Shown one piece after another: positions 12 to 14,300 of a DNA stretch of 23,015 nt. Location: the IMG/VR virus record IMGVR_UViG_3300029319_000442, positions 1 to 23,015 of that record; one strand, 5' to 3'. Under the pieces are notes generated by a model. That model did no database searches, had not been told where the DNA came from, and saw only the letters and a program-made list of their open reading frames with translations. Numbering within the stretch: the first letter of the stretch is position 1; each line of letters starts with the position of its first letter. Position numbers and translations under genes: made by a program. Origin of the DNA: a virus.

Positions 12-338
12 ATGATTAATTCAATTTATGGTAACTTAGGTGGTGTTGGTGGGACTAACTATCATCATTTCAGAATAGTTAAACAAGTCAATGATCGAAC
101 TGATAATGTCAATGCAATGGGTGGTAAAATAGACGCAGAAATACAAAGAGCTCAAAGTCAAGGCGAGCACTCTGGTCGTTTTTATCAAGTATTTGATTTT
201 CCAAAAAGCACTATGGAACTCACATATAAATTACAAGCATATGAACAAGGTAGCATGGATTTATTATTTAATGATACTGGGTCATCATCCAGTATGACTG
301 CATATGAAATTAGATCTACAGGAGATGAAAGAGAATGA
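12..338 (+). CDS. Small protein of unknown function (possibly 5'-partial)
   Basis: I do not recognise this 108-residue protein. It is mostly polar, with a glycine-rich N-terminal patch (GNLGGVGG) and an acidic, charged C-terminus; no signal peptide, membrane segment or known motif is visible. The ATG at 12 has no Shine-Dalgarno sequence in the 11 bases before it. The frame also stays open to the left edge of the window, so the protein may start further upstream and be truncated here. Its stop overlaps the next start as ATGA at 335-338, which implies translational coupling with the chaperone-like gene and then the fibre gene. The position suggests a role in tail or fibre biogenesis, but that is inference from neighbours only. 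Confidence 0.7.
   Translation: MINSIYGNLGGVGGTNYHHFRIVKQVNDRTDNVNAMGGKIDAEIQRAQSQGEHSGRFYQVFDFPKSTMELTYKLQAYEQGSMDLLFNDTGSSSSMTAYEIRSTGDERE
320..324 (+). promoter_or_regulatory. Ribosome binding site AGGAG for the chaperone-like gene
   Basis: AGGAG lies 10 bases before the ATG at 335, inside the end of the preceding gene. It fixes the start within the ATGA overlap. Confidence 0.7.
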
Positions 339-748
339 GGTATCATCCAGGCACCATAGTTAGATCACTTGGAATTAGTGATTTTAGAATTGATGGAGTT
401 CCTACAAATGAAGAAGAGTTTCTTTCTATGTTTCATAAGAAATTACCTAATGGAACATATACAAATGATTCATCTCAATTTGGAGTGACTTGGGATCAAA
501 TAAAAACAAAACTTGATGAATTAAATAATGCAGAATCAATTAGACTTTTAAGAGAAGAAAGAGATAGAAGACTTACAGAATGTGATTGGATTATTACTAA
601 GAATAAAGAATTAGGGACAAATATTCCTGCTGCTTGGAAAACATATCGTCAATCACTAAGAGATTTACCAAGCAATTCAAATCCAAAACTTGATGATAAT
701 AATGACTTAGATATGTCATCAGTGGTCTGGCCCACTAAACCATCATAA
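335..748 (+). CDS. Phage tail assembly chaperone-like protein
   Basis: This 137-residue protein has a C-terminal segment (about residues 69-112) that resembles the phage tail-assembly-chaperone domain: a charged helix REERDRRL, then TECDW, a variable spacer, and a closing W-x-x-Y-R-x-x-L-R-D-L-P. Small proteins with this domain are commonly encoded beside phage tail-fibre genes and are thought to help fold or assemble the fibre. The N-terminal half (residues 1-65) is unrecognised. The start is supported by an AGGAG ribosome binding site at 320-324 and by the ATGA overlap with the preceding gene. The large fibre-like gene begins 11 bases downstream, so that fibre is the likely client. The domain is recognised by eye; whether this protein is a chaperone or a minor structural component is not settled. 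Confidence 0.75.
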   Translation: MRYHPGTIVRSLGISDFRIDGVPTNEEEFLSMFHKKLPNGTYTNDSSQFGVTWDQIKTKLDELNNAESIRLLREERDRRLTECDWIITKNKELGTNIPAAWKTYRQSLRDLPSNSNPKLDDNNDLDMSSVVWPTKPS

Positions 749-759: not shown

Positions 760-3282
760 ATGTTATATAAAGACGCAGAAGGAAAAAACTTTCAAAAAGC
801 ATATAAAAGAATAGGTATCAGAAGAGATAGAAACTTTTCTGATTTATCAAATCCAACTGCAGGTTTAGATAATTTAATAGACACTTTAATTGACGTAACA
901 GGAACTGAGTTTTTATCTACAGATTTAGCAGCGATTAAAAATATTTTTGCAAGAGGTTTAACAAATAATGGTTATCTAAAAATTGCAGGAAGTGCAGTCA
1001 AATTTACAAGTCCAGATGGAATTACTGCGTCTTTTAATCCTCGAATCACATATCAAAATCGTTTAGATAAAATTCAAATATTTTCAGGAGAACCAAGGTT
1101 AAACGGTGGAAATGGATTAACAGCAAAATATTATCAAAATGACCAAATAAATTTTAGTGAACACTCAGAATTTCAGTATAATGTAGATCCAAATACAACT
1201 TCATCTGATGTTTTCACAGGAATTACAACTGAAGGTGCGATTGAAAACGACAATTTTTGGGAGGCTGGTAATTTTAATTATACAGGAAGCGTACACCCAC
1301 AATCATCAAAAGCAAATACTGGTGTACAATGGGAAGGATATTTTATACCTACGATTACAGGAAGAGTTGTTTTTTCTGCTAGTTCTACTGGTTATTTTAC
1401 AGTTGATTTTAATAAAGAAGGATATGAAGAAGATAATGATAAAAGTCAAACAACTGCATCAGTAAATGCTGTTGGTCAAGATAATGTTTATGATGAGCAA
1501 GGTAGAATCGGTCTTAGCACATCAATTTCAGGAATAAGTTCAACCACCACTCAAAATCAACTTTTAATTACAAATTCTTCGGAACTTGGAAAAATGAATA
1601 CCATTGGAATTGGTATGACAGCAGTTCATCCGAATATTGCTGTAAATTCAACAATTGAAGCATATGATAAAGAAACAGGAGCAATTAATTTAGTGCCTCC
1701 AGCTGGAGCGGCTAGTGCAATCACTGCACCAATATCAAATCAAACTATAACATTTAACAGAGTTTTGGGTCAAGATGTAAGGCATGAATTCAATACCTAT
1801 GTATTGACTGCTTATAAAAAATATCGTATTCGATATCGATACTTCCATCATAGAAATTTTGATTCTAAGGATATTATTAGATCAATGAATATGGATTATC
1901 GACAATTTAATCAGCAAACTTTGACTCATTTAAGGTATAATACTTTATACACTTTAGATTATAATTTTTCAGATTCTGTTAAAGGTTCATTTAATACATA
2001 TCTAGACAATTCTGTTCTCTTTGGTGGAACAAATATATTTCAAATTCTACCAACAGATCCTATCGGACTTGGGTCTCGAACTAACGCTGCACAATATTCC
2101 AAACTAAAATCTAGAAAAAAACTTGATATTACATATAAAGTAAAACAAACACTAGGGGATGGAAGTAATTTATCTACAGGAATTGTTAGAAGACAAACAC
2201 CTTGTGGAACTATAAATGGTAGTGCGATTGTCACAACTGACCTCACATTACCGATTGAAATTGGTAATTATGTTTTTGGAACTGGTATTCCTGATAATGC
2301 AAGAGTCATTGATTCACAAATTAATCAATTTGTGATTCTTGATAAACCTGCAACTGCCACTGGAAATCCAACTTTAACATTTATAAATCACCGTGGATTT
2401 GTAAAAAAAGTGGTAGTTAATTCAAATGTCAGTAATAATAAAACAATAATTGCTAATTCTAGCACACCAATTTTAGCATCTGGTGTAGATAGTGGTGGCA
2501 ACGCTCTACCAAATTATACAACAACTCACACAGATGTTCAGAGAGACATGGTGGGTATTGGAACTAATATTAACGCAATCCAAATAACTGGTGTTTCTGG
2601 GCCTAGTGGTAGTGATGGTGGAAGTTTAACTTTAAAAGATAATGTAAGTGCAAATCAAAATGATGTAATTTATATCTATCAGTCACGAGGACTTAAAGAT
2701 AATTCTCTACTTGATTTCTGTGGTAAATTTGATGCTACTCCATCAGTACAATGTTTAATAACAACCTCTCCAGTAACAACTTCAGATACTGTGATTCCAG
2801 TTCAATCTTTGGGTGTAATCACACAAGGTAATATTGGAAATGGTAATTGGAATTTGCAAGGATTTAACTTTTCCTCTGGAACTACAATTCAATCAGTTAA
2901 TCCTAGCACAAATCCACCCACTATAACTGTGCAAAATACGGTAAATAGTGATCCACCGATCTCTAAAGATATCGTAAGTGGTACACAATTCACTGCTACA
3001 TCTAATAGTGATGACCGTCAATTATGCTGCCCTCCGACAGATACCTCTCCACCTTTTACTGCAACTGAAGAGGGTTTAAATACTGATACCGTTGCACCAA
3101 GACCAAATCTACGGTTTGAAAATGGAAATTTGATATTTGATGAACTTTTAATTCAAGTTAATTCAAGTTCTAACAATGCAGAAGATTCAGATACTTATCC
3201 TTCAGCACAAATAAATCGTAAGATTGATATTAGATCAACAACTGCAAACAAAACTTACAAAATATTAGCAGCAACATCATAA
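760..3282 (+). CDS. Putative tail fibre/adhesin with interrupted PA14-like domain
   Basis: This 840-residue protein is a probable virion fibre or adhesin. Residues 1-60 hold an N-terminal segment with the pattern RRDxN...NxTxxLDNL (residues 21-39), shared with the 436-residue protein of the opposite operon. Residues about 118-215 look like the first half of a PA14 carbohydrate-binding domain (GLTAKYY, then FNYTGS, QWEGYF, TGRVVFSAS, GYFTVDF). The closing strands appear only at about 345-362 (YVLTAYKKYRIRYRYF), so about 125 residues are inserted. Two segments, about 280-330 and 497-540, share a 'GxGIP.N..V' type beta repeat (the clearer one is GTGIPDN). Five cysteines sit at 482, 654, 665, 757 and 758. 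No Shine-Dalgarno site precedes the start. PA14 modules in surface proteins usually bind glycans, so host-surface recognition is the likely job; this is inference. Confidence 0.8.
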   Translation: MLYKDAEGKNFQKAYKRIGIRRDRNFSDLSNPTAGLDNLIDTLIDVTGTEFLSTDLAAIKNIFARGLTNNGYLKIAGSAVKFTSPDGITASFNPRITYQNRLDKIQIFSGEPRLNGGNGLTAKYYQNDQINFSEHSEFQYNVDPNTTSSDVFTGITTEGAIENDNFWEAGNFNYTGSVHPQSSKANTGVQWEGYFIPTITGRVVFSASSTGYFTVDFNKEGYEEDNDKSQTTASVNAVGQDNVYDEQGRIGLSTSISGISSTTTQNQLLITNSSELGKMNTIGIGMTAVHPNIAVNSTIEAYDKETGAINLVPPAGAASAITAPISNQTITFNRVLGQDVRHEFNTYVLTAYKKYRIRYRYFHHRNFDSKDIIRSMNMDYRQFNQQTLTHLRYNTLYTLDYNFSDSVKGSFNTYLDNSVLFGGTNIFQILPTDPIGLGSRTNAAQYSKLKSRKKLDITYKVKQTLGDGSNLSTGIVRRQTPCGTINGSAIVTTDLTLPIEIGNYVFGTGIPDNARVIDSQINQFVILDKPATATGNPTLTFINHRGFVKKVVVNSNVSNNKTIIANSSTPILASGVDSGGNALPNYTTTHTDVQRDMVGIGTNINAIQITGVSGPSGSDGGSLTLKDNVSANQNDVIYIYQSRGLKDNSLLDFCGKFDATPSVQCLITTSPVTTSDTVIPVQSLGVITQGNIGNGNWNLQGFNFSSGTTIQSVNPSTNPPTITVQNTVNSDPPISKDIVSGTQFTATSNSDDRQLCCPPTDTSPPFTATEEGLNTDTVAPRPNLRFENGNLIFDELLIQVNSSSNNAEDSDTYPSAQINRKIDIRSTTANKTYKILAATS

Positions 3283-3348: not shown

Positions 3349-4659
3349 TTAGTTTTCAGTCAAGAGTAAATAATATGATTCTTGGTTTCCATTCTCATCT
3401 TGAATTTTAATTGGTAGTTTATGAGTAAACGAGGACGCATCAACAGTTGTACTTAATTCTGTCACCTGATCGTCGATTCCAGTGATTATCATTGAATTAT
3501 TACCATCTAAAAATGCAAGTTCACCAATAGATACCTCTTCACTTCCAGTTGTTAGTTTACCATTATCATTTCCTGTGCCACTAGATTCAACCCAAGGATT
3601 ATTATCTGCTGAGAACGCACGAGTATCGGAAATATAAATGCCAGGTGCTGGTGCATTAGGAATAGTGCTTCCGTCTTGATTTTTGTTTACTACTTTATTT
3701 CCATTAGTATTATAGTTAGCTGGATCATGTAAATTAATACTACCTTCGAATTTAATTTGATCATCTGTGGTTAGACTCTGATCACTTCGATATTTTTTAA
3801 GAGAAAAATATTCAGCACTCTCAATATTTGATTGAGTGCTATCAATTAGACCATTTATATCATCTGGATAACTAAAATTTTGATTGTCTTGTACCTGTGG
3901 TTCAATAAAGTTAATCACTTGTTGTTGATGAACTGGATCTTGACGTTTGAATTGAAAATTATCTGGGTTTGCACTGAGAAAACCTAAAATTGGAATAGGA
4001 GTTCCACCTAAACTACTTGACAATTTAAACTTACTTACACCATCAGATTCAACAACATAATAATTTGTATTAATTGTAAATGGTGTAATTGTTGGCCCTC
4101 CAATAGCAACAGTAAAAACTGGAGACACATCAAAATTAATAACATCCCCATCAGTATAAACAAATACATTTTGACTTTTTAGGCGAAAAGATACACCACT
4201 AATTGAAATATCACTATCATTAAAATGTAATCCATCTAATGTAAATGTAACTCTAGTTAAATCAGGAGTAGCAGCAATAACACTATGCTGACCATTCAAT
4301 ATAGATGCATTCGAAGTATCAGGTATACCTGAAATCTCAACTAAATCACCAAATTTTAGGAGATAAGAATTAGTTAGAGTAATTGTAACTGATGAACTAT
4401 TAATAGGTGCATCATTAGCGTCTGTGTTTCCTTCAGAACTAATTTTACTAATGGCGAGCAATTTATCTGGAGAAAAATTAAAGAAACCATCAGAATCAAT
4501 TGTATTAAATGCAACATTAGATGTGTTTCTTAAATTATTTTGTAGATAACTTATGTCATCAGCAGTTCCTGCACCAGCAAGGTTATCTAATGCAAGAGTA
4601 TCATTCGTAGTTTCTTGAAGATTTAAATCTCTTCGGTATCCTTGATTTGAAATTGCCAT
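3349..4659 (-). CDS. Virion structural protein, N-terminal docking motif
   Basis: This 436-residue protein is the last gene of the leftward operon. It begins with GYRRDLNLQET...LALDNLAGAG, an N-terminal style I associate with T4-like cyanophage structural proteins and one that matches residues 21-39 of the fibre at 760-3282 without gaps. Residues about 87-150 form a beta module of the type 'VTITLT...L..GD.VEISGI....LNGQHSV....' that also occurs in the 2417- and 1174-residue proteins. The C-terminal third is polar and rich in Asn, Asp and Ser and ends QESYYLLLTEN. There are no membrane segments or catalytic motifs. The start is fixed by AGGAG 7 bases upstream, overlapping the previous stop. 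It is most likely a small fibre or connector on the tail; exact location in the virion is unknown. Confidence 0.75.
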   Translation of the reverse strand: MAISNQGYRRDLNLQETTNDTLALDNLAGAGTADDISYLQNNLRNTSNVAFNTIDSDGFFNFSPDKLLAISKISSEGNTDANDAPINSSSVTITLTNSYLLKFGDLVEISGIPDTSNASILNGQHSVIAATPDLTRVTFTLDGLHFNDSDISISGVSFRLKSQNVFVYTDGDVINFDVSPVFTVAIGGPTITPFTINTNYYVVESDGVSKFKLSSSLGGTPIPILGFLSANPDNFQFKRQDPVHQQQVINFIEPQVQDNQNFSYPDDINGLIDSTQSNIESAEYFSLKKYRSDQSLTTDDQIKFEGSINLHDPANYNTNGNKVVNKNQDGSTIPNAPAPGIYISDTRAFSADNNPWVESSGTGNDNGKLTTGSEEVSIGELAFLDGNNSMIITGIDDQVTELSTTVDASSFTHKLPIKIQDENGNQESYYLLLTEN

Positions 4660-4666
4660 TTTATTT

Positions 4667-4671
4667 CTCCT
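4667..4671 (-). promoter_or_regulatory. Ribosome binding site AGGAG overlapping upstream stop
   Basis: On the leftward strand TAAGGAG joins the stop codon of the leucine-rich-repeat gene to the ribosome binding site of the 436-residue gene, 7 bases before its ATG. This suggests coupled translation. Confidence 0.75.
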
Positions 4672-7307
4672 TATGCAATAATTGGTGGTTCTTCAGGTAT
4701 TCCACCAGTAAGACCTATACTCCAACCATTTGCTTCTAAAATTCTGGCCTTAGCATAACCCACCTCAGATGGGAAAATGGTTGCACCATTATTAGGTGAG
4801 TTTGGATCATTAACTGTTTGATTTTTTAAATTAATTGAAACACCCCCACGTTTAATTGCATTCCAATTGGTGTGTAAATCAATTAATATATTATTTAAAT
4901 CTGTTTGTGACAAATGATTAAATTTCAAGTCAATAAAATTCATCTTATAAAGTTTTGCAAATGCACCAGGTTTGTATGAAGATAATTTATTATTACGCAA
5001 AGTTAAACTTCTTATATTAGAACAACCACTAAAATCTGGAATTTGTCCTGAAATTTGATTATTAGGTGCTTGATATGTAAACATGCTTGGTAAACTTCCT
5101 GGTTCATTAATTCCAGTTAGATTGTTATTTTGTAAATACAGTTCACGCAAACTATTTCTAGTGTCAAATGATGGAATAGATCCTGTCAAGTTATTATATT
5201 GTAAATTAACATATTGAATAATATCATTACCTACAAAATTTGGAATACTTCCAGTAAAACCATTGTTCTCCATCCAAATAGTTTGAAGTTCACCATTATT
5301 AACAAAAAGTTGAGAAATATCTCCAGTAGTTTCACCGTATGAACGGTACCATATATAATTAAGTTTTGGATTAAACAAGAATGCATCTGGATGTATTCTA
5401 TTTTTCCCTTCTGTAAAATTACCACCAAGATTTCCAGAATCAATATATAACTCTTGAAGTTCAACTGCCTCTTTAAATGTCTCTGGATAAATTACATATT
5501 GTTGGGCAGAATCAGAAGTTTGAGGTTTACCACCTTTAATGGATGTATACCTTAAATCAAGTTTTGTTAATGCAGGATTACTAAACCTCAAAGGAAAATT
5601 TATTGATCCTAAATTTGTTGCATACAGATTAAGTGTTGCGAGTGAGGTGCAAGCATTGAAAAGATAATCTCCAGTGCTGCTATTAACCATTTGACCTCCA
5701 GAATTTCTATTATGAGTACTAATAAAACTAGTGAGACTTGATTTGGTTTTTAAATTGGTTGGGATTGCAACTGATGTGCCCGTATAATTAATTGTTGCAA
5801 TTGTATTATTATCTGCACTTGCTAAAGTATGAGGCCCGTCAGACAAATAATAATTACCACTAACATCTAAATTTATGAGATTTTCTAGCATCTTATAACT
5901 GCGTGATCCGTTTGGAATTGTACTACTTGCTGCCTGATTTCTATTGTCAACTGATCTAAAATCATTACTTGCAATTAGAAAAACTTTAAGGGTGTTTGGC
6001 ATATCAGGACAGAATGCAGAGCCTCCGTCTGGAGATCGAGCATCTGGGTGAAAATATGCTCCAGCTCCTCTTGAACAGTTAAAGGTTTCTAAATTTGATA
6101 ATCTTTTTGAAACAATATCTCTTTCAATTGAACCATAAAAAGTTCCCTCAATTCTAAGTTCGGTTACTGTTGTTGGAATCTTTGCAAGAACAGCACTATT
6201 AAATGTTCTTTCACTTTCTATATCACTTAAATAAAATGGATTTCTCATCAATGAAAGTGTATTTAATCCTGGTGCGATAAAAGAAAAATTAGGAAATGTT
6301 TTTAGATTATTGTATGCAAAATCAAGACTTGTGCAATTTATTAATTTTATAAATGGAAGTTCTGAAAGATTTGCCGATTGTATTTTTATGGAAAAAATAT
6401 CATTTGGATTCTTATAAAGTTTTATAAACCTCTCTCTTGATATTGGAGATCGATATGATATTGATGATGTTCCTGTTCCTTGATTAGTATAATTTGTATA
6501 TAAATTTTCGTTTGCAGTCTCAACTATTTTCCAACTTGCTCTTGTAACTGAAGAATTAACAATTGCTGTCGCATTTAAATTTCTAAAAAATCCTTTGAAT
6601 ACTACTGGTATTCCTTTCATTGCATACAGATACACAACTTTTAATTGTCCATCACTATCCGTAATTTGACATTTGATTCTTGAAGTTGGAACTTCAGATG
6701 GAAACTCTTTTACTTCTGGTGTGATACTTGTTTGTAATCTTGGTAGATCTTTTACACCACTAGCATTTGACTGAGTTCCAAATTCTAATTTACCACCTTC
6801 AACAATACCAACTCTTGCACCATAAGAAATTTTTGCTAAACTTTGAATAGAAAGATCTGGATCATTTGCTCTCGGATCTGAGGAACTCCATGCACTTACT
6901 CTTGATGTTGATATGTCTGCAATTTTGTAAGCTGGAGAACTAAAATTACCAAGGGTAATACTTTGAGTAAAATCACGATAGCGATATCGAATTGCAGTAC
7001 CACTTAATGAACCATTAATATCTAAATTACCAAATAATGTTTGATCGGATCCTGCACGATTACGTAAAATATTAACAAAAGTTTCTGATTCCCTACTAAA
7101 ACGATCTAAAGTTCTGTAGATGGGAGTTTCTAAACGAGAAAAACTAATCCAATCAAAACGAGACATACCTGCGTTAGTTGCACCTTTAATTATCTCTAAA
7201 TCAAGAGGATTGATCCCAAGATTTTGTAGGGCAGCATTTTTATTCTGCACATCAGCAAGAAGACTTCGAACATTTAAACCAAATATTTTAGGATTCGTAA
7301 GTGACAT
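4671..7307 (-). CDS. Putative virion protein with leucine-rich repeats
   Basis: This 878-residue protein has two parts. Residues 1-245 form a conserved-looking head (NPKIFGLNVRSLLADVQNKN, ALQNLGINPLD, FDWISFSRLETPIYRTLDRF, DINGSLSGTAIRYRYRDF, YLYAMKGIPVVFKGFFRNLN) of the type I associate with T4-like cyanophage structural proteins. Residues about 305-830 are leucine-rich repeats. Most are irregular, but residues 673-775 show the plant receptor pattern LxxLxLxxNxLTGxIPxF several times (NNGFTGSIPNF, YNNLTGSIPSF, NNNLTG). The C-terminal segment ARILEANGWSI resembles the end of BspA-like surface repeats. No signal peptide is present, as expected for a virion part. The stop of the preceding gene overlaps this start (TAATG), with AGGAG just upstream. 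A host-binding fibre tip is a reasonable inference. Confidence 0.85.
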   Translation of the reverse strand: MSLTNPKIFGLNVRSLLADVQNKNAALQNLGINPLDLEIIKGATNAGMSRFDWISFSRLETPIYRTLDRFSRESETFVNILRNRAGSDQTLFGNLDINGSLSGTAIRYRYRDFTQSITLGNFSSPAYKIADISTSRVSAWSSSDPRANDPDLSIQSLAKISYGARVGIVEGGKLEFGTQSNASGVKDLPRLQTSITPEVKEFPSEVPTSRIKCQITDSDGQLKVVYLYAMKGIPVVFKGFFRNLNATAIVNSSVTRASWKIVETANENLYTNYTNQGTGTSSISYRSPISRERFIKLYKNPNDIFSIKIQSANLSELPFIKLINCTSLDFAYNNLKTFPNFSFIAPGLNTLSLMRNPFYLSDIESERTFNSAVLAKIPTTVTELRIEGTFYGSIERDIVSKRLSNLETFNCSRGAGAYFHPDARSPDGGSAFCPDMPNTLKVFLIASNDFRSVDNRNQAASSTIPNGSRSYKMLENLINLDVSGNYYLSDGPHTLASADNNTIATINYTGTSVAIPTNLKTKSSLTSFISTHNRNSGGQMVNSSTGDYLFNACTSLATLNLYATNLGSINFPLRFSNPALTKLDLRYTSIKGGKPQTSDSAQQYVIYPETFKEAVELQELYIDSGNLGGNFTEGKNRIHPDAFLFNPKLNYIWYRSYGETTGDISQLFVNNGELQTIWMENNGFTGSIPNFVGNDIIQYVNLQYNNLTGSIPSFDTRNSLRELYLQNNNLTGINEPGSLPSMFTYQAPNNQISGQIPDFSGCSNIRSLTLRNNKLSSYKPGAFAKLYKMNFIDLKFNHLSQTDLNNILIDLHTNWNAIKRGGVSINLKNQTVNDPNSPNNGATIFPSEVGYAKARILEANGWSIGLTGGIPEEPPIIA

Positions 7308-10300
7308 TATTGCTCCTTGAAATTTAAACTACTTTGAACAAATTTAGAACTACCACTATTAAGTTGTTTTGCAGTAAAGAATGTTACTTCAACATTATTA
7401 TTATCTGGTGTAATTACATTACGATCAACTCCAAACACTTTTGTCATGTCAATTTCTTTTGTTTCATTTTCACCAACATAAAATATATCTTTTGTAGTCG
7501 AAGGTCTCAAAACATGTTCATTTTGAGTATCAACCAAAGTTGATGACAATTTATCTATCGGAACAAAATTAGTTGGTGGAGTGCTATCATTAATTGTCAA
7601 ATTTGATGATCCGTCATTTGCTAAATCAATAGAACCGTTTGATCCATTAGATACAGATAAAACTGGGGCAGTCGTTCTTTGAAAAGTTCCTGATTTTTCT
7701 CGTATTGATATATTATTTATTTGTGCTCTATCCATTAATTTACCAACTAGATATAATGGAAAAACATTATATTTAAACAGTTTTGTTTTTGCAGATTGAC
7801 TACCTAATCTAGATCCTCTTAATTGAACTGGTCTTCCCACAATAGTTAAATTTGAATCTCCAGACTCGAAACCACTTGGTCTTACATTTTCAGTAATTTC
7901 AATATACTGTTTTGAAGTAGTGCCTTCTATGTATCCTGTTGGTTTGTTCTCGGCAAATTTAGCAGTTGAGGTGGTATCTGGATTACCATTACTATCTCTA
8001 TAAACCACTGCACCACCTAACCAGTCGGTGATGTCTCCACCAAAAATACCGTCAACAGATAAAAAATATCTATTTCCTGTTCTAGATGTCCCATCTGGAG
8101 CTGTGTTACCATATGTTTGAGTTACATTTACTGCTAGGTCAAGTGGATTACTAACATTAATTTTAAGTATCGAACAAGCACCACCACTTGTTCCACTCAC
8201 TTCTGGAATTCTTACATCCTGACCCATTCTACACCTATAATCACTACCACCAGACCAAGACTCCCCCGTTTCAACACCATCCTCATCCATTCCTGCGTGT
8301 GAATGCGTGTGCTCACCAAACAAAATTTCTCTTTCTGGTAAAATTGTAGTAATACCTATACCAGAAGATGCAGTTCCATTAAGGTTTGAATAATCTGTCC
8401 AAGGTAAAACTTGAGAATCCCATCCATCTAATATATTTGGATTACTTACATTCACCGATGGTTTTTTATCCGTAATACCAATCATGAAATCTGCAAAATG
8501 TGTATTTGTTCCACCTAAAGAACTTTGATCTTTTTTTAATGGATTTATAAATTGAATATCAATTTCTGATCCTGTTAAAGGAAAATCAGATGCGAAATGA
8601 ACATCATAATTACTCAATCGAACTAGGTGCGGATAAGTGGCTCCACTACCAACTGCAATCGTTGTTGAAATTCCAGAGTTAGCATAATCTGTTGTCAATG
8701 TACCACCTATTGGTCTTGCATCTGATCCTGTGGATTTATTATAACTACTTTCTCTCGTTCCTGCTTGAAAATATCCATCCAAACCAGATCCAAATCCATA
8801 AACTTTCGCACTTGTATAGGTTTTAAAACCGTTACTATATGTGGTAACTGTAGTTGGATCCTCATCCATCTCTGTGATGTAAACATTGAATAAAGATGGA
8901 GCAATTAGTTTTGCACCAACATCAGCAGCAGTAAAACTTGCACCAGTTCCAACAGCAGTTATTGTATTTCCTCCAGTAAATTCTATTGTCATATTTCTTC
9001 CTGTTTCAGTAGTTTTTACTCCAGGAGTAAACACATGACCAAAACCAGCACATGCTGTACAAGTTTTAATTTTAAGTTCAGTTAAAGTATTAGTTGATAC
9101 ATTAAATTTAGTTGGAAGTATAAGTTTCCTATTTTGGATTGGAAACGCTACATCCTCTCCACTGGGACGTGTTATATAACTTTCAATTATATTTTTTGGA
9201 CGGATACCGAATATAGTAGTTTCATTTGCAGTGTTTATTTGTTTTGGGTTCAAACCAGTGCTGACAGAATATATTTGTGATGTTCCTTCATCTCCACCAT
9301 CAATATAATATGAAGCACCATACTTATATAAAAATTGTGGTGTCTTTAAGTTTGCAGTATTAAATACATCTAAAGAATATTTAAATCTAAAATATGAATC
9401 TTGTAAACATGGTTCTTTTAAAGAGTTTTCGATCACAAGAGTGTGAACAACAACCCATCTCGCCTCACCACTGCCTGAAGGAATGTAAGCGTAAAATCTT
9501 GCACCAATCGCACCATACCAACCAAATTCAATCTTCCACATGGTAACATTCTCTGGTCTAATTGTATAACCAGATGGCCCATTTCCGTTTAATGGATCTC
9601 CATTAAATTTATCTCTTGGTATTTCAACTGTATGAAATTTTCTTGGATTACCATTTTCATCATTGTCAAATGGATCACCACTTGGGATTTCTGGTTGAAC
9701 TGTATTATATGATGTTCCATTTATTTGAATACTTGTTATTTCTGTAGGATCCAATCCATTTCTAACTAGAACTTGGGTCGATAATGCAACTGTACTTCTA
9801 CGAACTATTGATAATTGACCTGCGTATATTTTAAAAATATATTGATCTGTTGGATTTGCAATTCCCCACTCTAATGCAATACCTGAAACTGGTTCTGTGG
9901 ATGCTCTTAATCCAAATGTAAATCCACTAATTCTACCTGGTTGATATCTGAACACTCTTCTTGATTGAATCGCACTGTATCTACGATGTCCAGTCGAATA
10001 TCCAGGTCTTGTATTTGATCCATCATAAAGTGATTGTAAATCATTTTCTGCAAGAAGAGTGCTTAGTTTTCCGAATGTTAAGAATTGTCCTGTGACTGGA
10101 TCTAGTAAACTTTTTCCTTCTCCAATCGCCCTCCATGTATCAGTCCATTCATCTATCTTTTGAAAAGCATAACTAAAATCTTTTTCTTTACCTAGTAATT
10201 TAGTGTAAATAACTTCACCACTACTCTCATCATAATCTACATCTGCAGGGTTTAAAAATTTATTTGTCCAATCTACAGAGTAACCAGATAGTTTTTGACT

Positions 10301-11356
10301 GTAAAGTTGATATGCAAGATTACCTAATCGAACAAAATTTATATACTGTTGAAATAAAGTTTCATCATATAATCCAAGTTTTGTATAGTTAGGGCCAAAA
10401 GGATATGAATGAGATGGTGGAAACGCAGATAATTTAATTGCAGATTCTTGTGTTTCCTCTTCAAGTCTTGCTAAGTAACGATTACCATATATCTTATTTG
10501 GTCTTCGATCCCAAGATGGTTTACTTGCACCTGTATTATATGAAAAACTTTCCCATTCATCACTGTTTATTCCGTAAGAGGAAACATTTGAAAATAAACT
10601 TAATTGTGTTTCTGCACGATTTACACCGAGTAGTGTTGTACTGACTTCACTAGTCTCTCTAAATTCTTCTGCAATTTTTAAGACATTATCTGCTGTATAA
10701 GTAGCAGTTCCTTGTCTTAGAAATTTAACTTTTTCAGTTGTAATTCCTGAAGTAACATGTTGAGATATTTTAATTCTATTATGATCTATTTTTAATACAA
10801 AAGAATCATTTGGAATATTAAATCCACTTACTTTGTCACCTATTTGAACATTTGAGATATAAGATAGATCACTTTCTGGAAAATATAAATTATTTGTTTC
10901 ATGATTTTCACTATCATCTACAGTGCGAATTTCACATGCATTTAAATCTGTAAAAGTAATTCCAATAGCAACAGCAGGAGAGACGACACGTTCTTTTACA
11001 GTTGTCGCAACTCCAACTACTGCACCTGTTCTTTTGAGGACTCTTATTTGATTAGAACTGGTGATTAATGTACTTACATCTAAATCAACTCCGTAAGTTG
11101 CAGTTGAGATCGCAACTTGTGTAACTGTTTTTATATCATACTTATCCTCTGCATTTGAAGGAAAAACAACTGAAGTTGATCTTTCAGAAGATGCATCAGG
11201 TAAGAAAAATTGATCAACTTTTGTTATTAGTTGATTACCAAACTCATCAGTTAGGAGTTCACCATTTGCAATGTTATATAGCGGTTGCTCATCTGATGGT
11301 ACTACGGATACTGGGCGTTTATCGTGCCCAATTTTAACATCCTTTCCTCCATTCAT
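7307..11356 (-). CDS. Large virion structural protein, paralogue of upstream gene
   Basis: This 1349-residue protein is a paralogue of the 1174-residue protein encoded just upstream. Shared blocks in the same order are: SEVSTTLLGVNRAE..LSLF with NSDEWES (236-270), RRVFRYQPGRISGFTFG (466-482), VEIPRDKFNGD (577-587), VTMWKIEFGWYGAIGARFYAY and GEARWVVVH (604-638), and YKYGASYYIDGGD (677-689). It differs by an N-terminal extension of about 180 residues, a probably helical insertion (about 320-445), a CxxC (766 and 769), and an HTHSH motif at 1016-1020 followed by an acidic Gly/Ser-rich loop. Both paralogues end in a similar strand-rich tail (FKEQ versus WEEQ). The start has a strong GGAGGAG site 9 bases upstream. 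It probably belongs to the baseplate periphery or tail-fibre network; no enzyme motif is seen. Confidence 0.8.
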   Translation of the reverse strand: MNGGKDVKIGHDKRPVSVVPSDEQPLYNIANGELLTDEFGNQLITKVDQFFLPDASSERSTSVVFPSNAEDKYDIKTVTQVAISTATYGVDLDVSTLITSSNQIRVLKRTGAVVGVATTVKERVVSPAVAIGITFTDLNACEIRTVDDSENHETNNLYFPESDLSYISNVQIGDKVSGFNIPNDSFVLKIDHNRIKISQHVTSGITTEKVKFLRQGTATYTADNVLKIAEEFRETSEVSTTLLGVNRAETQLSLFSNVSSYGINSDEWESFSYNTGASKPSWDRRPNKIYGNRYLARLEEETQESAIKLSAFPPSHSYPFGPNYTKLGLYDETLFQQYINFVRLGNLAYQLYSQKLSGYSVDWTNKFLNPADVDYDESSGEVIYTKLLGKEKDFSYAFQKIDEWTDTWRAIGEGKSLLDPVTGQFLTFGKLSTLLAENDLQSLYDGSNTRPGYSTGHRRYSAIQSRRVFRYQPGRISGFTFGLRASTEPVSGIALEWGIANPTDQYIFKIYAGQLSIVRRSTVALSTQVLVRNGLDPTEITSIQINGTSYNTVQPEIPSGDPFDNDENGNPRKFHTVEIPRDKFNGDPLNGNGPSGYTIRPENVTMWKIEFGWYGAIGARFYAYIPSGSGEARWVVVHTLVIENSLKEPCLQDSYFRFKYSLDVFNTANLKTPQFLYKYGASYYIDGGDEGTSQIYSVSTGLNPKQINTANETTIFGIRPKNIIESYITRPSGEDVAFPIQNRKLILPTKFNVSTNTLTELKIKTCTACAGFGHVFTPGVKTTETGRNMTIEFTGGNTITAVGTGASFTAADVGAKLIAPSLFNVYITEMDEDPTTVTTYSNGFKTYTSAKVYGFGSGLDGYFQAGTRESSYNKSTGSDARPIGGTLTTDYANSGISTTIAVGSGATYPHLVRLSNYDVHFASDFPLTGSEIDIQFINPLKKDQSSLGGTNTHFADFMIGITDKKPSVNVSNPNILDGWDSQVLPWTDYSNLNGTASSGIGITTILPEREILFGEHTHSHAGMDEDGVETGESWSGGSDYRCRMGQDVRIPEVSGTSGGACSILKINVSNPLDLAVNVTQTYGNTAPDGTSRTGNRYFLSVDGIFGGDITDWLGGAVVYRDSNGNPDTTSTAKFAENKPTGYIEGTTSKQYIEITENVRPSGFESGDSNLTIVGRPVQLRGSRLGSQSAKTKLFKYNVFPLYLVGKLMDRAQINNISIREKSGTFQRTTAPVLSVSNGSNGSIDLANDGSSNLTINDSTPPTNFVPIDKLSSTLVDTQNEHVLRPSTTKDIFYVGENETKEIDMTKVFGVDRNVITPDNNNVEVTFFTAKQLNSGSSKFVQSSLNFKEQ
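7313..7317 (-). promoter_or_regulatory. Ribosome binding site AGGAG for the leucine-rich-repeat gene
   Basis: AGGAG lies inside the last codons of the 1349-residue gene, 5 bases before the ATG; stop and start overlap by one base as TAATG. Confidence 0.75.
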
Positions 11357-11359
11357 AGA

Positions 11360-14300
11360 TCACTGCTCCTCCCAAGTGATACTTGCGTTTGTCGTTGAAA
11401 TTGCAGATGATGGATCGTATGTTCCCTCTGAAGATCCAACAACATATAAAGTTTCTACTATATTTGTAAGTGGGAATGATAGATATTCTTTATTGTAATC
11501 AAAGTAGGAAGACAAATCAAATTCCTCTCCTCCATTTGGAATGAATAAACTTGCAACAATAGTTCCTGTTTTTGGAATTGGTGCCCTTAATTCAGGACTT
11601 ACTTTGATAGATGATAATGCATCTAATGTAAAGTCATTATTTGTTACGGAAGAAAGAATTGTTCCAGTTGGTGTTGTTTGTCCCTCACGCAAGAAAACTG
11701 TGCCACCAGTTAGTTCAATATTATCATTAGTTGGATTTTCTGCTCTGAAATAGTATTCAGTTGATGCACCTCTTCTCTCTAAATATCCAAATACTGTTAT
11801 TGTTTTTTGAGCTGCATCATTCTGGAACTTACCCCTCAAATAACCATAAACACCAGTATTATTAGTGGTTAAGTAACTTGAAGATAAAAGATTAATTTTA
11901 AAAGATTTACCTCTCTTTCCGATATTCAAAACAGTTTTAGATGTATCAGATGGATCTGGGTTTGCTGGAAGTGTGAATGTTCCTGATATTGCAGAAGTGG
12001 TTTGGAATATCGGACTCTTAAGTAAATCAACTTTAATCAATGCATTTGAACCAGTTGACAATCTTGTTGGATATACCTGAGTACGGTTTCTAACCTCTCT
12101 ACCTGTGCTACTTGTAATGAAATCTCTACACTTCAATCCAATCATAGGTGTTGGACGATTTAAAATTAAATCAATACTATTTCCAGGAATATTAACTTCT
12201 GCAAGGGGAACATTTAGATGTAATCTATTGTTTGATGTATCTACATACACAACCTCTACATTCTGATCTTGTGGGTTTCCAGTTATTACTTTTGCACCAA
12301 CAAAATATGAAGATCCTAAAGAGCTAGTACCATTACCAGTGATATATGGATCAGTTGCGTTAATTGCAGGTTGGCCAACTGTTATTCCACTTGATACACT
12401 ACCAACTGCGAATGTTCTCTTTGATCCAAAAACATTAACTCCAACAGGAGTTCCATGACTGAATAATTTAACAGTTCCACGGTCTCCACCATCAATATAA
12501 TAAGAAGCACCGTACTTGATAATATGTTCTGATGATGAACCATAATCAAATGCAGTAGGAGTTCTTTTACCATCACTATATCCATAACGATATGAACTGC
12601 CACCACCGTATACCATGTAGGTGATTGGTAGAGTTGCATTACCTAAAGATGAACCTTTTAACTGGTTAGATGCTCTTAAATGATGCACACGCACCCATCT
12701 GGCCTCACCTGCACCAACTGGGACATAAGCAAGGAATAGAGCACCAACAGCACCATACCATGAGAACTCAATCTTGTACATGGTAACTTTATCAAATTCA
12801 AGATTCCATATACTTGTATCAGTTTGATTTGCACCTGTTGTTGTGTCAAGAACATTTGAACCTGCACGATTTGTTGCAGTTACATCACTGTATAATAAAT
12901 CATCAGTCGCATTATCTAAACGATCACCACTGAATCTAGATCTTGGAACACGGTATTCATATACATTCCAGAAATCTTTCTTAACATTTTGGTTTACCCA
13001 ATTTGTATAATAATTATTAACTGCTTTTATTTGTTTTGTTATTTTATCAACATCCGAGGAAGATGTAGTTAGAGTTGTATCTATGTACCCCTCTTCTTGT
13101 TCTTCAGAGTCTTTATACATGTATGGGAACATACCAGATCTTTTAATACTTCCAGTTCCATATTTTCTATATGTACCACCACCCGAATCAACAATTATAT
13201 TATCAGCAATTGGTTGCACAAAAGGAACAGGAGTTATAAGTGAGTGTCCAGATTGACTTGTATTGGATAATACTACATTATTAGCATCATCGGTTGTACC
13301 AGCCTTATAACCACTAGTCATTGCCACAGTTAGTTCTCTTAACTTAACTTTTACTTCCTTATTATCTTTATCATATGTTATGCCATTAACTCTATAAATT
13401 TTTTCATCAACTAAATCACCAATTGGATTTGCATTTATTCCTTTACTATAAGATACATATTGACTTGTAGAAAGTCCAAGAACAACAGCACCATTTTCCA
13501 TTGATTTTTCTGCATTAAAGAAAGTTGCAACAGTTGAAACACCAACATTAACTACGAATGTTGTACCAGCAGCACCAACTTGAAGAATATTATATCCATG
13601 TGTTCTATCTGGATATGTTTTTCTTAAATCGTTTGTTCCAGCAGCACCACCCGAACCATCTTGTAATGTTCCTGTGCCATCACCATTCGCATAACTATAA
13701 CGACAAGTCATTCCAATTCCACTTAATTGGACAAATTTGCCAACTTCAAATCCATGTGCACCATGTGTGGTGACTGTCATTAAACCTGTATCAATATCAT
13801 ACACTGCGTTCTCAATACTCTTTCCGATACCAGTGTTGTCTATATCAAATTTTAATTCTCTATTTGCTGCAGCACCAGTGGTTGCCTCTGATATAAAATA
13901 TTCTTGCTTATCCTGAAGAATAGATGGATCATAGACACCAGCATGTGTCATCATTAAGTTGTCACGATAAATTACAAGATCACCAAGTTTTACGTTAGTA
14001 TATCCTGCAGGTGTTGAGTCATGACCAGCTGTATAAGCAACACCTGTATAATCTGGGCCTCCACTTGGGTTATTAAATCCAGCATTTTTACCCGCCTTAT
14101 CGTCATCGGTTTCATTACCTCTTGGTGCTAAAACATCTAATGGATTTGTTGCACCAAAATCTGCTGTTTGACCAGGATTTGAAGTTGCATCAAAAGAAAC
14201 TGGATTATTGAATAGAAGTGATTGAGTTCTTCTTACTACGGAAAAATTATCTCCTTGACCATTATTTCTTGTTTCCCAATAATACCCATCAAAGTTATCA

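Follow-up and report, generated by a model that had tools for sequence, protein, structure and literature searches.

An S-TIM5 gp118-like leucine-rich repeat protein in a cyanophage tail gene cluster, a putative baseplate or tail-tip adhesin

An ATG-started open reading frame (ORF) on the minus strand of the window (the whole stretch of 23,015 nucleotides analysed here, from a 25,794-base IMG/VR viral contig) encodes a protein of 878 amino acids, in which the initial annotation had recognized leucine-rich repeats (LRRs) of plant-receptor type joined to a 245-residue head resembling a phage structural domain. The locus raises the question of what such a protein does in a phage, and whether its repeats form a swappable host-recognition module on a conserved head. 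The features of the locus are listed in Table 1.

Table 1 Features of the LRR gene, its product and the neighbouring genes in the window
Feature	Position	Strand	Basis
Whole LRR protein, 878 aa (S-TIM5 gp118 homologue)	4671..7307	-	ORF; Pfam LRR; profile match to S-TIM5/S-TIM54 gp118
N-terminal module, residues 1-60, common to opposite-strand neighbour, putative docking peptide	7128..7307	-	hhalign; head-profile search
Conserved head, residues 1-200, low-confidence model	6708..7307	-	Top conservation; pLDDT mostly <50
Beta-strand domain linking head and LRR, residues 201-300	6408..6707	-	AlphaFold2 strands 210-298
LRR solenoid, residues 301-830, ~20 turns	4818..6407	-	Pfam; AlphaFold2; PDB sequence and fold matches to LRR ectodomains
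Plant-type LxxLxLxxNxLxGxIPxF repeats, residues 674-788, spacing 22-24	4944..5288	-	Sequence
C-terminal cap, residues 831-878, near-invariant GW motif	4674..4817	-	Alignment; AlphaFold2 helix 848-859, strand 863-865
gp117-like neighbour, 436 aa; N-terminus weakly related to putative docking module	3349..4659	-	S-TIM5 gp117 synteny; hhalign vs gp116-like E 1.3e-5
gp116-like neighbour, 840 aa; N-terminal module ~residues 13-80	760..3282	+	Synteny; hhalign; head-profile match
S-TIM5 gp119-like virion structural protein, 1349 aa	7307..11356	-	phrog_1645 E 2e-33; tblastn 41-45% to S-TIM phages
gp120-like virion structural protein, 1174 aa	11360..14884	-	phrog_1645 E 5e-17; synteny
Giant tail fibre protein, 2417 aa	14887..22140	-	~1550 N-terminal residues 43-47% identical to cyanophage tail fibres
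Tail fibre assembly / Phage_tail_APC protein	335..748	+	Pfam and PHROG matches

Repeats and predicted fold

Matches to LRR_8 (56.9 bits, cut-off 27, E 1.8e-15), LRR_4 (53.4, cut-off 27) and LRR_1 (32.4, cut-off 20.6) were all found above the Pfam cut-offs, and the tandem LxxLxLxxN units scoring above the gathering threshold place the protein in the leucine-rich repeat superfamily. A scan for LxxLxLxxNxL gave 12 hits, every one after residue 300, compared with a mean of 3.9 and a maximum of 11 in 2000 shuffled copies of the same protein. The most regular stretch (residues 674-800) consists of six units starting at residues 674, 697, 720, 742, 765 and 789, with a spacing of 22-24; upstream of them the units are irregular and lie 22-37 residues apart. 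The NNLTGSIPxF-like units noticed earlier in the C-terminal repeats are real, and the GxIP motif appears as GSIPNF, GSIPSF and GQIPDF in three of the last six repeats. The protein does not belong to the plant-specific LRR class, which has 24-residue units with LxGxIP throughout, because only these last six units are regular and only three of them carry GxIP. The description of the repeats as BspA-like had to be dropped, as no LRR_5 or DUF285 match was reported by Pfam up to E 0.1.

The structure was predicted with AlphaFold2 from an alignment of 34 natural homologues. In the model an unbroken solenoid with some 20 turns spans residues ~300-870, with pLDDT above 90 in most ten-residue blocks; together with the Foldseek comparison the model gives, as a prediction and not a solved structure, a solenoid fold with one strand per repeat. 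The LRRs that the initial annotation had placed at about residues 305-830 (positions 4818-6395) are thus borne out by both Pfam and the LRR solenoid predicted within residues 300-878, and the solenoid itself is regarded as secure. Ahead of it the model has a beta-strand domain, with a pLDDT of about 65-70 at residues 201-230 that climbs to about 85-93 at residues 241-300. The first ~200 residues, the head, mostly have pLDDT below 50 within the full-length model, and folding the head by itself brought no improvement (mean pLDDT 56.9). The head could possibly be an obligate oligomer.

When the solenoid was compared with the PDB, plant LRR ectodomains were matched by sequence and by fold, with modest TM-scores of 0.2-0.4 on the query. 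Like the ectodomains of plant LRR receptor kinases (MIK2, FLS2, BRI1, HSL1), the phage protein has the LxxLxLxxNxLxGxIP motif and the solenoid fold, but it has no kinase or membrane anchor and its unit length is irregular outside the last six turns. A plant origin of the LRR was considered and rejected, because these matches reflect the kind of repeat and the proteins that the PDB happens to contain, the GC of the LRR segment equals that of its surroundings, and distant relatives have the gene in the same slot. The likeness to plant receptors shows a common type of repeat and is no evidence of plant descent. Among phage families, the LRR part was matched by phrog_6688 (E 8e-7) and phrog_21719 (E 1e-5), which are LRR-like and of unknown function, but the match covers 120-200 repeat residues only and leaves the head unmatched. 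It has been reported that ORF 287 of the Vibrio jumbo phage vB_VhaM_pir03 encodes a BspA-family LRR protein (PMC7765460); this is also an LRR protein of a tailed phage, but of DUF285/BspA type, unlike the 878-residue protein.

Genomic surroundings and homology with S-TIM5 gp118

The LRR gene sits between the genes for the 1349- and 436-residue proteins, and the gene for the 840-residue protein is convergent with it on the other strand, with the tail fibre assembly gene beyond. Upstream of the LRR gene, past the genes for the 1174- and 2417-residue proteins, baseplate-hub-like genes were found at the contig end. The genes around the LRR gene match families of tail fibres, virion structural proteins, baseplate hubs and fibre assembly proteins, and the LRR gene is securely placed within the tail cluster of a cyanophage. 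The 1349- and 1174-residue neighbours both match phrog_1645 and have segments in common, such as KIEFxWYGAxGAxFxAYxPxGxGEARWVxxHxLxxxN; judged from their sequences, the pair appears to consist of tandem paralogues of one virion structural protein. The last ~850 residues of the 2417-residue protein lie outside its matches to cyanophage fibres, and the 840-residue protein has a weak PA14 match (E 0.0037, under the cut-off).

No matches to the whole protein or to the head alone were obtained by tblastn in 50,697 phage records, and the LRR part alone gave only weak repeat-type matches in phages. The homologue in the S-TIM phages was reached via the 1349-residue neighbour (tblastn) and via profile comparison. 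With hhalign, the profile of the window family was aligned to gp118 of S-TIM5 and S-TIM54 over residues 10-359 (probability 99.35, E 6.2e-21); this head homology required 34 sequences, whereas a five-sequence profile aligned the C-terminal repeats alone. S-TIM5 gp118 (YP_007006107.1, UniProt H6WFW9) was also the top BFVD structure match (E 1.4e-17), and LRRs are detected in it by Pfam as well. The gene order of S-TIM5, gp120-gp119-gp118-gp117 with gp116 on the opposite strand, is the order in the window. The 878-residue protein has in common with gp118 the slot between the gp119-like and gp117/gp116-like genes, a head whose homology extends into the first LRR turns, LRRs after the head and the same overall predicted fold, and it adds to the gp118 family a new member of more canonical appearance. 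The gp118 proteins of S-TIM5 and S-TIM54 differ from it in being longer (1193-1217 residues), in having far fewer canonical repeats, and in a remaining solenoid too diverged for sequence alignment save for a C-terminal stretch. According to a review, S-TIM5 has no T4-type structural module and has a novel one (PMC4928673). No report of an LRR virion protein of a cyanophage was found in the literature searched, which covered subscription journals thinly.

The LRR protein and the gp116-like protein have an N-terminal module in common. Residues 1 to ~60 of the LRR protein were aligned with the N-terminus of the gp116-like protein at E 5.9e-8, and at E 4.6e-10 with S-TIM sequences added, compared with E 0.12-0.41 in the controls (an unrelated neighbour and reversed profiles). 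When whole contigs were searched with the head profile, the gp116-like ORF was a further weak match in four of eight genomes (E 8e-4 to 0.009), and the N-terminus of the gp117-like protein is in turn linked to that of the gp116-like one (Table 1). N-terminal attachment domains occur in phage tail fibres, and by analogy the ~60-residue stretch suggests a common docking module.

This module and the deposited annotations bear on whether the protein belongs to the particle at all. The role of LRR proteins in other phages is sometimes not known, which leaves room for a protein acting in or on the cell during infection, either an LRR effector or an assembly factor encoded among late genes. However, the deposited S-TIM5 annotation gives gp118 as "virion structural protein and packaging", whereas it lists several neighbouring proteins as hypothetical, and gp116, which has the head module in common, is likewise annotated as virion structural. 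A role outside the particle is therefore considered improbable, and the LRR protein is likely to be present in the virion.

In IMG/VR, 47 loci with a head-plus-LRR protein were retrieved by profile search, nearly all matching residues 1-864, and the gene order around these loci is kept as one conserved cassette. Since psbA/psbD-type genes occur in the contigs of 5 of 17 relatives, those relatives at least should have cyanobacterial hosts. One 236-kb relative (L026 / G003) has a T4-type capsid protein and tail sheath together with psbA/psbD-type genes, so the cassette is also present in a T4-like cyanophage, beside S-TIM5-like ones. Its LRR gene (G003:C1:123496-125743) is split near the start into a 37-residue piece and a 774-residue frame, by a frameshift or a sequencing error. 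The L034-L055 clade (e.g. G006, 151,964 bases) carries near-identical 794-residue LRR versions; psbA had no match in the five contigs of this clade tested (52-152 kb), and the host of the clade may differ from that of the psbA-carrying group. Insertions between the gp119-like and LRR genes were seen in some relatives; in L006 and L007, at 5359-7869, they comprise short fibre-like genes (MxSRRPLIVNS...) and two more ORFs of 224 and 204 residues. A search with one genome per species gave a single locus, on a phage-like contig that had been assigned to an actinobacterial MAG; L060 (NHEZ01000047.1), a contig in a Cellulomonadaceae MAG (TMED98), has the same phage cassette with an 819-residue LRR protein and is probably a mis-binned phage contig.

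Joint inheritance of head and repeats

Head and repeats were compared in 34 non-redundant relatives. The head is the most conserved region of the protein, with a mean pairwise identity of 0.56 against 0.40-0.47 for three LRR parts. The expectation that the head is conserved and the repeats vary holds to this extent, but the repeats and the neighbouring virion proteins are conserved to about the same degree, the LRR identity being 0.43 and that of the gp117-like and gp116-like neighbours 0.43 and 0.39. The proposed 245-residue head thus stands as a conserved region, though its first ~200 residues are without a confident model.

A recently acquired, exchangeable host-recognition cassette, in which LRRs are swapped on a fixed head, would account for the higher conservation of the head and for the few well-supported splits at which head and LRR trees conflict. 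These conflicts come mainly through one long-branch sequence, L051, and were not counted as a head-LRR swap; the sequence is divergent and has an insertion in the head. The L051 protein (8001-11627) is 1209 residues long in total, its head insertion exceeds 100 residues by a wide margin, and its LRR is distant from all others. The head and LRR trees have 16 of 31 splits in common, compared with 0.14 expected with shuffled labels, and head and LRR identities are correlated at 0.88-0.92. The same head-LRR combination was found in all 34 relatives: no head without LRR was seen, no relative carried this head on an unrelated tip, and a clear exchange was not found either. The length of the C-terminal LRR part is nearly constant, 162-170 residues in all sequences except a truncated one, and the GC of the LRR segment, given above, also speaks against recent acquisition. 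Given the correlated identities, the splits in common and the lack of observed exchange, head and LRR are one inherited unit in this family; the swappable module of the initial annotation is not supported, and an exchangeable cassette is considered very improbable.

Concave face and proposed function

The repeat motif, and not measured solvent exposure, was used to tell concave from convex positions, and on this assignment aromatic residues make up 24% of the exposed concave strand positions and 11% of the convex/loop positions. Family-wide entropy is higher at concave exposed positions (2.12 bits) than at convex/loop positions (1.67 bits, p = 0.00015). Among close pairs, amino-acid differences are fewer on the concave face (7.9% vs 14.5%, CI of the difference -0.114 to -0.020), and among distant pairs they are more frequent there (75.9% vs 64.5%, CI 0.042 to 0.186), the bootstrap intervals excluding zero in both cases; as the main weakness of this comparison, 21 of the 26 close pairs come from one clade, so that few independent lineages bear on the within-lineage constraint. 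Such a pattern of substitutions would be expected of a binding surface with a partner that is constant inside each lineage and changes from one lineage to the next, and the partner could be a host molecule or another virion protein.

We propose that the LRR protein belongs to the virion, where it forms part of the adsorption apparatus of the cyanophage, at the baseplate or tail tip. The conserved head, which starts with the ~60-residue module also present in the gp116-like protein, would attach it to the particle, probably in oligomeric form; the beta-strand domain would then hold the ~530-residue solenoid outward, and the concave beta-sheet would bind a cyanobacterial surface molecule that is constant within a phage lineage and different between lineages. 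We infer the presence in the particle, the docking site, the oligomeric state and a host-surface molecule as ligand, and we give this putative adhesin, with a docking head and a host-binding concave face, about an even chance. It counts against the adhesin that its LRR part is no more variable than the neighbouring proteins, unlike many receptor-binding tips.

The main competitor is an internal baseplate scaffold, in which the LRR binds virion partners (e.g. the gp117-like and gp119-like proteins or the giant tail fibre) and the concave face co-evolves with its partner. A cassette inherited as a block in strict gene order and an LRR divergence that tracks the head and the neighbouring genes would suit such a scaffold, and constraint within lineages with divergence between them is expected for a co-evolving protein partner as well. 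However, aromatic-rich exposed strands and an ectodomain-like solenoid of ~20 turns would be more typical of ligand binding, and the cluster has fibres, fibre assembly proteins and the weak match of carbohydrate-binding type (PA14) in a neighbour. We therefore consider the scaffold possible but rather unlikely. If the protein is an adhesin, a cyanophage lineage might recognize its host by the LRR concave face and not by trimeric fibre tips, with the LRR protein and at least one neighbour using one baseplate socket via the ~60-residue module, so that several different adhesins would fit a common socket; this wider proposal is put forward only tentatively.

Most phage adhesins take the form of trimeric fibres, spikes or lectin-like tips. 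An adhesin built of LRRs would be a new variation on this theme: if the LRR solenoid is indeed the binding part, phages would have one more, distinct fold for recognition, with the concave-face architecture that immune receptors of plants and animals also use. The cyanophage group concerned turns up in many metagenomes. The adhesin reading offers a testable explanation for S-TIM5 gp118, annotated so far just as virion structural, and names the surface positions worth examining, and the N-terminal module provides a handle for finding further proteins attached to the same baseplate site.
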